The translations under genes and the position numbers were made by a program. A stretch of DNA of 64,000 bases from Candidatus Saccharimonadota bacterium (GTDB lineage Bacteria; Patescibacteriota; Saccharimonadia; Saccharimonadales; Saccharimonadaceae): contig JAFRBS010000022.1 of NCBI GenBank assembly GCA_017404725.1, forward strand, positions 1-64,000. The letters are read 5' to 3'. Below the pieces are notes generated by a model. It was not told the origin of the DNA. It searched no databases and was given only the letters and a program-made list of their open reading frames with translations. The number at the start of each line of letters is the position of its first letter. The first letter of the stretch is position 1. Shown piece by piece: positions 4,940 to 62,886 of this stretch.

Positions 4940-5015
4940 AGGGGTATAGCTCAGCTGGTAGAGCACAGGTCTCCAAAACCTGGTGTCGGGGGTTCAAGTC
5001 CCTCTGCCCCTGCCA
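4940..5015 (+). tRNA. tRNA-Trp (CCA anticodon)
   Basis: A 76-base cloverleaf. The acceptor stem AGGGGTA pairs with TGCCCCT (one U-G pair), the D arm is GCTC-agctggta-GAGC, the anticodon stem CAGGT/ACCTG encloses CTCCAAA with anticodon CCA, and the T arm is GGGGG-TTCAAGT-CCCTC-like. The discriminator base is G, as usual for bacterial tRNA-Trp, and CCA is encoded. The last 27 bases plus the three that follow are repeated 77 bases further on. Confidence 0.97.
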
Positions 5016-5095
5016 AGTTCAAGGTGCAGTGCCCTTGAACCCCCGACGCGTCCCAAGGGGCGAACGGGGTTCAAGTCCCTCTGCCCCTGCCAAGT
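4989..5095. repeat. Duplicated tRNA-Trp 3' end around a palindromic repeat
   Basis: A perfect 30-bp direct repeat (4989-5018 and 5066-5095) covers the T arm, acceptor end and CCAAGT of tRNA-Trp. Between the copies are a hairpin GTTCAAGG/CCTTGAAC (5017-5040), the inverted repeat CTTGAACCCC (5034-5043)/GGGGTTCAAG (5066-5075), and the reverse-oriented family 16-mer CGCGTCCCAAGGGGCG (5047-5062). The tRNA itself stays intact. The direct repeat looks like the trace of an insertion that rebuilt the tRNA end; no integrase gene is nearby. Confidence 0.8.
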
Positions 5096-8581: not shown

Positions 8582-9187
8582 ATGGCAAATAGAAGAAAAT
8601 ATACTGAAAGCCACTGGCTAGTTTTCGCTTTTCAAGGCGTAGTCGGGCTTTTGTTCGGTTGGTACGTAATGTTTACGAACGTTACGGATCTTGCGGTCTT
8701 GGTCACGATCGTCGCGGCGACTCTGCTCGTCCTCGGCATCATCAGTATCTTGAACCTGGTCCATCGCAAACGCCTCCAGCACGCTTGGGGCCTAACCCTC
8801 GTCGACGCGATCATCGAAATCGCGATCGCTGGCGTCCTTTTCTTCGCCAAAAATGCAGATTATACCCTGAAAATTTCGCTGATCGCCGGCTATACGCTGT
8901 TCCGCGGCGCGCTAGAAATGCTGATCGGTCTGAAGTCTCTGACCGACCGTACCGACCGCTTTATGTGGACGGTCTGCGGAATCTGTGGCGTAATTCTCGC
9001 CTTTGTCATCTTTAACGCTGGCGCCTTCGCCGACCAGACGACCTTCATCAAATTCTTCGGCACTTACATGATGATTTACGGTATTACGAACTTGATTTAC
9101 GGCGTCCATAACAAAAACGAGCTCTCCGAGGAGAAAGAGCATCGTCGCAAGTTGGCCAGAGAGAGGAGTCATAAATCAAGTAAATAA
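8582..9187 (+). CDS. HdeD/DUF308-like membrane protein
   Basis: 201 residues with six membrane segments in three pairs and a charged Lys/Arg/Glu tail, the pattern of the HdeD/DUF308 family. The E. coli member is linked to acid resistance; the role here is unknown. The promoter is TTGTAA, 18 bases, TGCTATAAT, and the ribosome-binding site is AAAGGAG. The last codons and the stop form the left arm of a 21-bp inverted repeat that encloses a copy of the palindromic repeat. Confidence 0.75.
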   Translation: MANRRKYTESHWLVFAFQGVVGLLFGWYVMFTNVTDLAVLVTIVAATLLVLGIISILNLVHRKRLQHAWGLTLVDAIIEIAIAGVLFFAKNADYTLKISLIAGYTLFRGALEMLIGLKSLTDRTDRFMWTVCGICGVILAFVIFNAGAFADQTTFIKFFGTYMMIYGITNLIYGVHNKNELSEEKEHRRKLARERSHKSSK

Positions 9188-9282
9188 ACGATTTCGAAGG
9201 GCCTAAGACTTGGCCGCTCGCCCCTTGGGACGCGGATAGCGGCCCGGAGCGGCCCGAGAAACGTTTATTTGCTTGATTTATG
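9170..9282. repeat. Palindromic repeat copy before galU, with 21-bp inverted arms
   Basis: The arms at 9170-9190 and 9262-9282 are inverted copies with 20 of 21 matches. Inside lies a second stem GGCCGCT/AGCGGCC (9212-9218 with 9237-9243), and its loop holds the family 16-mer CGCCCCTTGGGACGCG (9219-9234). The left arm encodes the last residues of the upstream protein and the right arm runs into the galU promoter. It may also act as a terminator between the two genes, though there is no U-run. Confidence 0.85.
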
Positions 9283-9295
9283 GTATAATAGGGCT

Positions 9296-59506: not shown

Positions 59507-60962
59507 AGAACTTTCGGCGGTCGAGATGGTAAAAACCGCGCTAGAAAAAGCTAAAGCGGCCCAAGAAAAATACAGCGTCTTCATCAGCTTGAACAAAGAA
59601 GCCGCATTAAAACGCGCAGCAGAAATCGACGGGAAAATCAAAAACGGCGAAAATCCAGGTCGGCTCGCCGGCGTGCCATATGCCCTGAAAGATAACTTCC
59701 TAAGTAAAGACGGAAATACTACCGCCGCGAGCAAAATTCTAGAACCTATGAAGAGCCCGATTACCGCGACTTCGGTTAAGAAGCTCGAAGACGAAGGCGC
59801 GATTATGATCGGCCGCACGAACCTCGACGCGTTTGCGCATGGCTCCTCGACCGAGAACTCCTATTTTGGCCCGACGAAGAACTCGAAAGACGCAGCGCGC
59901 GTCGCTGGCGGCTCATCCGGCGGCTCAGCGGTCGCGGTCGCGCTCGACATTGTCCAGTTTGCGACTGGAACTGATACCGGCGGCTCGATCCGCCAGCCCG
60001 CCTCGTTTAACGGCGTCTACGGCTTTAAGCCGACTTATGGCACGATTTCTCGCTATGGCGTCGTCGCAATGGCCTCGAGTACAGATTGCGTCGGCTTCTT
60101 CGCTAACTCCGCCGAAGACATCGACCTCCTCATGTCTATCACCGCCGGCCAAGACCCCTACGACATGACAACCTTACCGGACTATTACGGCGCCGATTTT
60201 ACAAGGGGTGACGCGTTGCGGGGTCCCGCCGGCCCCGAGCCGCAGGCGAGCGGGTCGGATGGGCGATACAACGCGACCGCCCCTTGGGACGCGGAAGGCC
60301 GAAGGCCTACAGGACCCCGTAAAATCGGCGTGATCAAGGACTTCGATATCAAAGGCGACATCAAAGACGCCCTGGACAAAAAGATTAAAGACTTAAAGTC
60401 CAAGGGATACGAAATCGTCGAACTTGAAATGCCGACCTTAAAATACGCTCTCGCGGTCTACTACATCGTCGTCCCTGCCGAAATCTCCAGCAATTTAAGC
60501 CGCTACGACGGCATCCGCTACGCCTATCGAAACAGCTCCGCAAAATCCCTAGATGAGGTTTACGGTAAATCGCGCTCGGATGGCTTCATGCCAGAAAACA
60601 AGCGCCGCATCATGATCGGAAACTTCGTTCTAAGCTCTGGTTTTTATGACGCTTATTATCTAAAAGCCCAGAAAGCCAGAACCCTAATCATCAAAGAATA
60701 CGAAGAAGCGTTTAAAAAATGCGACTTTATCTTAAGCCCAGTAACCCCGAACCCGGCCTTTAAGCTCGGCGAAAAAACTGACGACCCTGTTTCCATGTAT
60801 CTTGAAGATGTGATGAGCGTGCCAATTAACCTCGCGGGCTTGCCGAGCCTGGCCTTCCCAGTCGGCGAGACAAAAGACGGGCTAAGCCTCGGGCTCCAGC
60901 TCATCGGTCCGAGAAGAAGTGATAAAGCCCTTCTGGACTTCGCTGGAAAGGAGCTAAAATAA
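59490..60962 (+). CDS. gatA: Glutamyl-tRNA(Gln) amidotransferase subunit A with in-frame palindromic insertion
   Basis: 490 residues, amidase signature family. Catalytic Lys in PYALKDN (near 65), the Gly/Ser-rich core GGSSGGSAVAVA and GTDTGGSIRQPAS with the cis-Ser and nucleophilic Ser. It makes ammonia from glutamine and passes it to GatB. Residues about 238-276 are an insertion between GADFT and KIGVIKDF, encoded by a palindromic repeat; it contains GDALRGPAGPEPQASGSDGR, also found in GatB, and TAPWDAEGRRPTG, also found in LeuS. It replaces a short loop, and the frame is kept. Confidence 0.95.
   Translation: MQIASKELSAVEMVKTALEKAKAAQEKYSVFISLNKEAALKRAAEIDGKIKNGENPGRLAGVPYALKDNFLSKDGNTTAASKILEPMKSPITATSVKKLEDEGAIMIGRTNLDAFAHGSSTENSYFGPTKNSKDAARVAGGSSGGSAVAVALDIVQFATGTDTGGSIRQPASFNGVYGFKPTYGTISRYGVVAMASSTDCVGFFANSAEDIDLLMSITAGQDPYDMTTLPDYYGADFTRGDALRGPAGPEPQASGSDGRYNATAPWDAEGRRPTGPRKIGVIKDFDIKGDIKDALDKKIKDLKSKGYEIVELEMPTLKYALAVYYIVVPAEISSNLSRYDGIRYAYRNSSAKSLDEVYGKSRSDGFMPENKRRIMIGNFVLSSGFYDAYYLKAQKARTLIIKEYEEAFKKCDFILSPVTPNPAFKLGEKTDDPVSMYLEDVMSVPINLAGLPSLAFPVGETKDGLSLGLQLIGPRRSDKALLDFAGKELK
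60191..60330. repeat. Composite palindromic repeat inside gatA
   Basis: Locus-specific arms CGCCGATTTTAC (60191-60202) and GTAAAATCGGCG (60319-60330), then GGGGT/ACCCC (60205-60209, 60314-60318). Module 1 (60204-60266) matches gatB 62368-62430 at 60 of 63 bases. Stem GCGTTG/CAACGC (60213-60218, 60269-60274). Module 2 (60274-60310, 37 bases) is identical to leuS 16563-16599. So this copy holds both modules known singly elsewhere. Confidence 0.9.
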
Positions 60963-61387: not shown

Positions 61388-62886
61388 TGAAAGACTATGA
61401 AATCACCATCGGTATCGAATGCCACGTCCAGCTCGCGACGAGAACAAAGCTCTTTTCCGAAGTCGACAACGACGCGCGCGAAAAAGAGCCGAATTCCTGC
61501 GTCTCCCCTGTTGATTATGCTTTGCCGGGCATGCTTCCGCGCCTAAATAAAGAGGCAGTAAAGATGGCGGTCATCGCCGGCCATGCGCTTAACTCAGAGA
61601 TAAATTTGATCAGCCGTTTCGATCGTAAACATTATTATTACCCAGATCTGCCGAAAGGCTACCAGATTTCTCAGCTCTACCAGCCGATTATCGGCGCGGG
61701 CTACGTAAAGCTCCCAGATGGAACGAAAGTGCGGATTGAACACGCCCATATGGAGGAAGACGCTGGAAAACTCAGTCATTTTGCCGGTTATTCGCTGGTC
61801 GATTTGAACCGCGCCGGCACACCGCTGATCGAGATCGTCAGTATGCCAGACATCCATTCCGCCGCCCACGCTCGCGACTATTGTAAAGAGCTCTGGCGGA
61901 TTATGACCTACGCCGGCGTTTGTTTCGGCGACCTCTATAATGGCAACATGCGCTTTGATGTTAATATCTCGCTTGCGAAGCCGGGCGAGCCGCTCGGTAC
62001 GCGCGCCGAGATTAAGAATTTAAATAGCTTCCGTAGCGTCGAACGCGCAGTCGAATACGAGTATAAGCGCCAGTCTAAACTCTTAGACAAGGACGAAAAA
62101 GTCGTTCAGGAAACTCGCGGCTGGTCCGACGATACCGGCGAAACGACTTCGCAGCGCTCAAAAGAAGAGGCCCAAGATTATCGTTACATGCCGGAGCCAG
62201 ACATCCCGCCGATTCACCTGACGAAAGAATTTGTCGAGGAGCAGAAGGCGAAGATGCCAAAACTCCCGGAAGATTACCGCGAGCAGTTTAAAGGCCAAAT
62301 CGCCGACGATACCCTCGAAATCTTGCTCGATTACCAGCCGCTGATGGGCAAGCTAGACGAGCTGGCGAGGGGTGACGCGCTGAGGGGCCCCGCCGGCCCC
62401 GAGCCGCAGGCGAGCGGGTCGGATGGGCGAGACAGCGCGGCAGGACCCCGAGCCAGTATCGTTAAGCGTGTCGCGAACTGGTTCGCGAGCGTCCTCCTCG
62501 CCGAGGAAAAATCTGCGGAGTATTTAAACGACTTGCCTTCCGCAAAGCAGCTAGACGACCTCGCCGAGATGACCGAAAAATCCGAGCTCAGCTCGACCGG
62601 CGCGAAAGAAGTGTTCTTAAAGTTCTTTGATCCCCAGATGAGAAACCGCGACGCCCGCGAGATCGCGAAGGAATTAAACGTTCTCCAGGAGAACGACGCT
62701 GGCGCGCTCGAGAAAATTGTCGACGAAGTCCTAAGCGACCCAGCCTGCGCGAAGGCGGTCGAAGATTATAAAGCCGGCTCCGAGAAAGTCCTCGGCTTCC
62801 TCGTCGGCCAGGTTATGAAAGCGTCGAAAGGCAAGGCGAACCCCGCCGCTGTCCAGCCGATCCTGAAGAAAAAGTTGTCGAAATAA
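61387..62886 (+). CDS. gatB: Glutamyl-tRNA(Gln) amidotransferase subunit B with in-frame palindromic insertion
   Basis: 499 residues. Kinase-like cradle domain: IGIECHVQLATRTKLFSE, HYYYPDLPKGYQISQLYQP, HMEEDAGKLSH, VDLNRAGTPLIEIVS, RFDVNISLA; then helical and YqeY-like tail domains (AREIAKELNVLQ ... KASKGKANP). It activates and amidates Glu- or Asp-tRNA. Residues about 326-355 are an insertion with GDALRGPAGPEPQASGSDGR at the junction between the cradle and the helical domain, where a loop is expected. The rest is of normal pattern. Confidence 0.95.
   Translation: MKDYEITIGIECHVQLATRTKLFSEVDNDAREKEPNSCVSPVDYALPGMLPRLNKEAVKMAVIAGHALNSEINLISRFDRKHYYYPDLPKGYQISQLYQPIIGAGYVKLPDGTKVRIEHAHMEEDAGKLSHFAGYSLVDLNRAGTPLIEIVSMPDIHSAAHARDYCKELWRIMTYAGVCFGDLYNGNMRFDVNISLAKPGEPLGTRAEIKNLNSFRSVERAVEYEYKRQSKLLDKDEKVVQETRGWSDDTGETTSQRSKEEAQDYRYMPEPDIPPIHLTKEFVEEQKAKMPKLPEDYREQFKGQIADDTLEILLDYQPLMGKLDELARGDALRGPAGPEPQASGSDGRDSAAGPRASIVKRVANWFASVLLAEEKSAEYLNDLPSAKQLDDLAEMTEKSELSSTGAKEVFLKFFDPQMRNRDAREIAKELNVLQENDAGALEKIVDEVLSDPACAKAVEDYKAGSEKVLGFLVGQVMKASKGKANPAAVQPILKKKLSK
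62362..62456. repeat. Palindromic repeat copy inside gatB
   Basis: Outer stem CTGGC-GA-GGGGT/ACCCC-GA-GCCAG (62362-62373, 62445-62456) with a tandem G-A mismatch. Module 1 is at 62368-62430. Stem GCGCTG/CAGCGC (62377-62382, 62433-62438) and hairpin GGGGCC-ccgcc-GGCCCC (62384-62400). It lacks module 2 (the CGCCCCTTGGGACGCG segment). Confidence 0.88.

Follow-up and report, generated by a model that had tools for sequence, protein, structure and literature searches.

Short palindromic elements in a ruminant Candidatus Saccharibacteria species are bracketed by inverted arms that are unique to each locus. At several loci one arm is ancestral host DNA and the other is an inverted copy of it that accompanies the element, and fold-back or template-switch synthesis probably copies this one flank as the core inserts. 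We analyzed a window of 64,000 nucleotides (contig C11) from a genome of 738,871 bp, whose DnaE is at most 85% identical to the nearest named records, which are ruminant Candidatus Saccharibacteria MAGs. The sister genome used for the empty-site comparison (G085) was covered over ∼540 kb and is 77% identical to the host genome over long aligned blocks (∼23% diverged), and filled and empty sites were compared side by side after anchoring. Gene names were assigned from translations, with a Pfam check of the window genes.

The repeat described in an earlier note on the window is a nested set of palindromic cores, which we term A (CGCC..GGGACGCG), B (GGGTGACGC..CAGGACCC), and C (CGAAGGGCCTAAGACTTGGCC..GGCCCGAG). 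Copies of module A share the piece CGCCCCTTGGGACGCG, and the internal short stems of the module occur in several versions that differ but are complementary. Module A lies in the loop of core C in the element that follows the DUF308 gene of the window and at C24:40050 (contig:position), giving a 64-bp combined form that is also present in the sister, while most C copies lack A and are 43 bp long. It also lies within the tail of core B, at gatA and elsewhere, and C copies are often nested in a B frame, with the host arms outside that frame. Core D (ATAATGAGATTTAGACCAGA..TCAAGTCC) is intergenic and unrelated in sequence to the other three; its sites (C19:38938, C24:26145, C23:16958, C7:34467, C9:13820, and C19:49738) are located within terminator-like stems at gene ends, and their internal stem pairs co-vary from copy to copy.

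We located 34 sites, ∼24 of them in long open frames of housekeeping genes, including those for ValS, LeuS, IleS, AlaS, ArgS (twice), GatA, GatB, TypA, LigA, DnaX, Der, TopA, MurG, and MnmA. Elements occur in either orientation within genes and the frame stays open; judged from the reading frames, this favors translation of the inserts (for example, TAPWDAEGRRPTG) over their bypass. A search for core A allowing two mismatches recovered it from about half of the 36 genomes of the genus and, among 380 genomes sampled across the phylum, from no other genus apart from one weak exception. The best explanation is that these sequences are modular, in many cases nested palindromic elements of Saccharibacteria, short and non-autonomous, which are tolerated in frame in protein loops and at gene ends.

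Arm strength was assessed by setting the aligned flanks against 20,000 positions drawn at random from the genome with the same spacing. The arms at the DUF308 locus, CATAAATCAAG(T/C)AAATAAACG, pair over 21 bp with one mismatch and are equalled by 2 of these positions, the perfect 12-bp arms at gatA by 14, and the leuS arms (13, 8, and 7 bp with small gaps) by 35. At tRNA-Trp the 10-bp arms adjoin the core, and 383 random positions are as good, which makes them marginal when taken alone; the 5 + 5 bp arms at gatB are indistinguishable from chance. The earlier note had listed five copies with arms of these lengths, and its description of locus-specific inverted arms stands for the first four loci but not for gatB, where the pairing is at chance level. 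The arm sequences are different at each locus and nearly absent from the rest of the genome. Coordinates of all features in the window are given in the table.

Table. Elements, arms, and host sequences in the window (positions on the forward strand of the 64,000-nucleotide stretch)
Locus	Feature	Start	End	Strand	Remarks
DUF308	Left arm	9170	9190	+	Host DNA: end of DUF308 gene (ORF 8582-9187), final codons and stop
DUF308	Core C (CGAAGGGCCTAAGACTTGGCC..GGCCCGAG), loop holding module A	9195	9258	+	
DUF308	Module A core CGCCCCTTGGGACGCG	9219	9234	+	
DUF308	Right arm, inverted copy of 9170-9190	9262	9282	+	
tRNA-Trp	Host T arm (tRNA 4940-5015), source of inverted copy	4985	4998	+	
tRNA-Trp	Inverted T-arm copy CTTGAACCCCCGAC, 14 nt	5034	5047	+	Absent in sister
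tRNA-Trp	Module A core	5047	5062	-	
tRNA-Trp	Direct 30-nt second copy of tRNA 3' end (4989-5018)	5066	5095	+	Absent in sister
leuS	Left arm (13+8+7 bp)	16486	16518	+	Outer part is conserved VEFEIAG codons, ancestral
leuS	Module A	16563	16603	+	
leuS	Right arm, inverted copy of left flank	16618	16648	+	Without homologue in relatives
gatA	Left arm CGCCGATTTTAC	60191	60202	+	New copy
gatA	Core B with module A (60278-60293) in tail	60205	60318	+	
gatA	Right arm GTAAAATCGGCG	60319	60330	+	Conserved KIGV codons, ancestral
gatB	Core B with weak 5+5 bp arms (e.g., 62362-62366 / 62452-62456)	62361	62456	+	Sister empty

A family-wide control, in which the left flank of a copy was paired with the right flanks of other copies, extended this result beyond the window. 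Among 31 distinct copies of core C in the genus, 29 score above the 95th percentile of these mismatched pairs, which is 8; the median arm score is 15 against a control mean of 5.6, although part of this pairing belongs to the B frame, since C copies often lie inside one. All eight copies of core D (six in the host genome and two in the sister) have arms of 19 to 38 bp. For core B, 9 of 15 copies lie above the 95th percentile of the mismatched pairs, and at least five perfect pairs stand at the very edge of the core in 8 of the 15 versus 1% of controls.

Empty sites in relatives show which arm is ancestral. In the empty leuS sites of the sister and 14 other relatives, VEFEI-type codons match the left arm and the right arm is missing, and their palindrome scores are 3 to 6, whereas the two species that carry inserts score 16. 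At gatA a single arm is present in 10 empty sites, which score 5 to 7 versus 13 for the filled site. The left arm also aligns with the sister protein in an RlmD/TrmA-like gene (C2:2472) and in der (C24:13735), and the right arm is its inverted copy, perfect over 22 to 24 bp in the former and imperfect over ∼23 bp in the latter. The earlier note had held that at least one arm is host DNA, and this is borne out by an ancestral left arm at leuS, the RlmD/TrmA-like gene, and der and an ancestral right arm at gatA. It had also proposed looking in relatives for empty sites that already contain both arms, and we found a single arm at all four of these loci. Since these sites carry one arm only, the arms there are neither transposon termini, as the note had also maintained, nor older than the insertion.

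At the DUF308 locus the palindrome is confined to the two species with the element, the host and its sister; the lysine-rich C-terminal end and stop of the gene resemble those of element-free relatives, from which the right arm is missing. This arm abuts a -10-like TATAAT (9284-9289) of a nucleotidyltransferase gene, filling the space before the box. The sister locus at tRNA-Trp is a plain tRNA that lacks the inverted copy, the core, and the direct copy. In murG (C24:40050) the right arm is ancestral, and the empty site in the sister reads AGACGAA-TCCTTCAAACC-TTCGTCT, with a 7-bp inverted repeat, while the filled site reads AGACGAA-GGTTTTGAAGG-core-CCTTCAAACC-TTCGTCT, the reverse complement of the loop having been added. 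A reverse-complement copy of local sequence that is absent from the ancestor is therefore found at leuS, gatA, the RlmD/TrmA-like gene, der, murG, and tRNA-Trp. Neither arm is clearly ancestral at C19:26983 and C24:20496, and at C19:12919 the sister keeps a 3' remnant, so that deletion may account for the state of the sister at some sites.

The same protein loops have received other inserts in congeners. In leuS of one congener (G004) a different insert occupies the same loop and has its own 16-bp arms, derived from its own IEF codons, and the gatA loop of at least three congeners holds other palindromic inserts, each with its own arms. We separately note that leuS of G013 (L221) carries, at the loop of the window's insert, a Nudix-like in-frame insert of ∼580 bp followed by a palindromic element, and that an insert of similar size occupies this loop in G024.

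An alternative that we consider unlikely is target choice, in which elements insert into the loops of existing hairpins (terminators or chance palindromes) and the arms are older than the insertion. Such a preference has a precedent in the YPAL elements of Yersinia, which insert at or beside dyad symmetry (PMC2229807), and core D lies at gene ends within terminator-like stems; the D family may well be sitting in older terminator stems. At the terminator site C23:16946 the element-free sister has AACCTTAAAATA..TATTTTAAGGTT, the outer 12 bp of arms that are extended in the host genome, which together with the 7-bp repeat in the empty murG site indicates that part of some arms is older. The view that arms do not predate the insertion thus holds at leuS, gatA, the RlmD/TrmA-like gene, and der, but needs qualification at murG and C23:16946, where they partly pre-existed. 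Against target choice, the empty leuS and gatA sites contain no palindrome and lack the second arm, and nearly all of the ∼90 other sequences at the DUF308 locus score 4 to 12; one (L178) reaches 16, but with a different sequence that represents a palindrome unrelated to the element. Target choice is already contradicted at the four loci with one-armed empty sites.

Less probable still is growth after insertion, in which an armless core inserts and its stem is later extended, beyond the core, by successive quasi-palindrome template switches. Processes of this kind are known elsewhere: template switching between inverted repeats in yeast homogenizes arms and inverts the spacer (PMC8604942), and RNA genes have been argued to gain stems in one event (PMC8794818). 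Both marks of the yeast process are seen at one locus, C19:38938, where the D core lies in opposite orientations in the host genome and the sister and the arms differ by several matched changes. Arms and core stems also co-vary among species, and arms go on co-changing after insertion. However, nearly all C and D copies already have arms, some of them perfect over 23 to 29 bp, and we found no young armless copies of either core. For D, selection on the terminator could also maintain the arm pairing, and the copies in coding sequence argue more strongly for copying.

The earlier note had also offered selection of the flanks to lengthen the stem. In this reading point changes in the flanks would be driven by an advantage of the longer stem, as RNA or as DNA, for example in bypass, processing, or recognition. 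Although the DUF308 arms co-vary, G-T wobble included, and translation bypasses the palindromes of mitochondrial genes in Magnusiomyces (as cited in PMC6649704), we regard this as very improbable, because selection alone would need many directed changes across at least 20 bases on a single flank within a single lineage, point changes are an implausible source of perfect inverted copies of at least 22 bp of a coding flank, and the frame is open in either element orientation, as expected of translated inserts.

We accordingly return to copying of one flank during insertion, for which the earlier proposal that insertion copies adjacent host DNA in inverted form finds support in the one-armed empty sites. 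Under this mechanism, a 3' end would fold back at the target and copy the neighboring strand in reverse, and the core would be incorporated during this synthesis to yield flank, core, and reverse complement of the flank, or the mirror image. A short inverted repeat at the target, where present, would prime the fold-back, and the loop of that repeat would be copied. Synthesis would then return to the original template, sometimes upstream, which would leave the direct recopy at tRNA-Trp, and later template switches between the arms would maintain their complementarity and could flip the core. The evidence in hand comprises the single ancestral arm at several loci, the inverted copy that accompanies the element, the co-change of arms, the inversion of the core, and the double recopy at tRNA-Trp; from these we infer that the copying belongs to the insertion event itself, as we infer a polymerase and primer and the core's route to a new locus. 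We suggest only tentatively the fuller possibility that hairpin-primed target copying furnishes every insertion with terminal inverted repeats made from host DNA, without transposase-defined ends or target duplications, and that loss of SbcCD permits this.

SbcCD is homologous to Mre11-Rad50. Fold-back inverted duplications are the major class of rearrangement in yeast deficient in the Mre11 nuclease (PMC10622511). SbcD exceeded its cut-off in 0 of 30 relatives from the order versus 8 of 14 control genomes. No relative passed the cut-off for SbcC, for which there were weak ATPase-type matches, and this is a weak test since just one control genome passed. Lack of a detectable SbcCD hairpin nuclease is plausibly a permissive condition for palindromes in this group.

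The nearest counterparts of the elements are the protein-coding palindromes of Rickettsia and template-switch mutation. Like the palindromic elements (RPE) of Rickettsia and Wolbachia, they are short palindromic repeats without a gene of their own that lie in frame in the conserved genes, and in the RNA genes, of one clade; compared by description, they differ in their locus-specific host-derived inverted arms, which are not among the RPE features in PMC2229807. With template-switch mutations they share the inverted copy of the neighboring strand, arm homogenization, spacer inversion, and priming by short inverted repeats, but here these are coupled to a repeated mobile core that has arrived at dozens of sites. 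The coding palindromes of Nematomorpha mitochondria are likewise long inverted repeats in translated genes, and conversion is thought to equalize their arms, although a shared repeated core is not described there. REP/RAYT sequences and MITEs (YPAL, ERIC, and RUP) are also small non-autonomous palindromic repeats, and YPAL shares the association with dyad symmetry, but the elements described here have no constant terminal repeats past the core, no regular target duplication, and no Y1 transposase in their genome.

Several origins were rejected. The absence of a Y1 transposase (PF01797) from the genome speaks against a REP/RAYT origin, and a MITE or other transposon would have constant outer terminal inverted repeats, whereas the arms differ at every locus. 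No regular target-site duplication was seen by eye in the side-by-side empty sites, apart from the 30-nt direct recopy at tRNA-Trp. Rfam matches were to tRNAs only, which argues against a known RNA family, and viral contigs lacked the exact core patterns expected of phage carriage. Mobility through reverse transcriptase was also set aside, as the three reverse transcriptase genes look like diversity-generating retroelements and no link to the cores was seen. These genes (C24:62361, C23:25085, and C10:13059; L374 to L376) encode proteins of 395 to 409 aa with IGNLTSQ-type and YVDDF motifs, and an ORF of 256 to 321 aa lies ahead of each.

Literature searches with thin coverage of subscription papers turned up no account of elements like these from Saccharibacteria, which is weak evidence of novelty. 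The movement of protein-coding palindromes, such as those of Rickettsia, has stayed an open question because no transposase or target signature is known for them. Host-copied arms represent such a signature, one that points to fold-back synthesis and can be read in any pair of genomes. If the proposed copying is correct, it would provide a one-step origin for long stems inside genes and terminators and a route by which the proteins of reduced CPR genomes acquire new loops.

Two further palindromic arrangements were observed. Upstream of a small gene at C1:31196-31300, a CIRCE-type repeat (GCACTC..GAGTGC) appears doubled, with CCCCTTGGGACG in the loop of one copy, and the sister has a single plain repeat. 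The second arrangement (L050:2750-2930 and L073:2520-2610) consists of two palindromic copies, nearly identical, that surround a short ORF starting MNYQNVNNINKKSAVLAHRQ and are bracketed by matching inverted ends.
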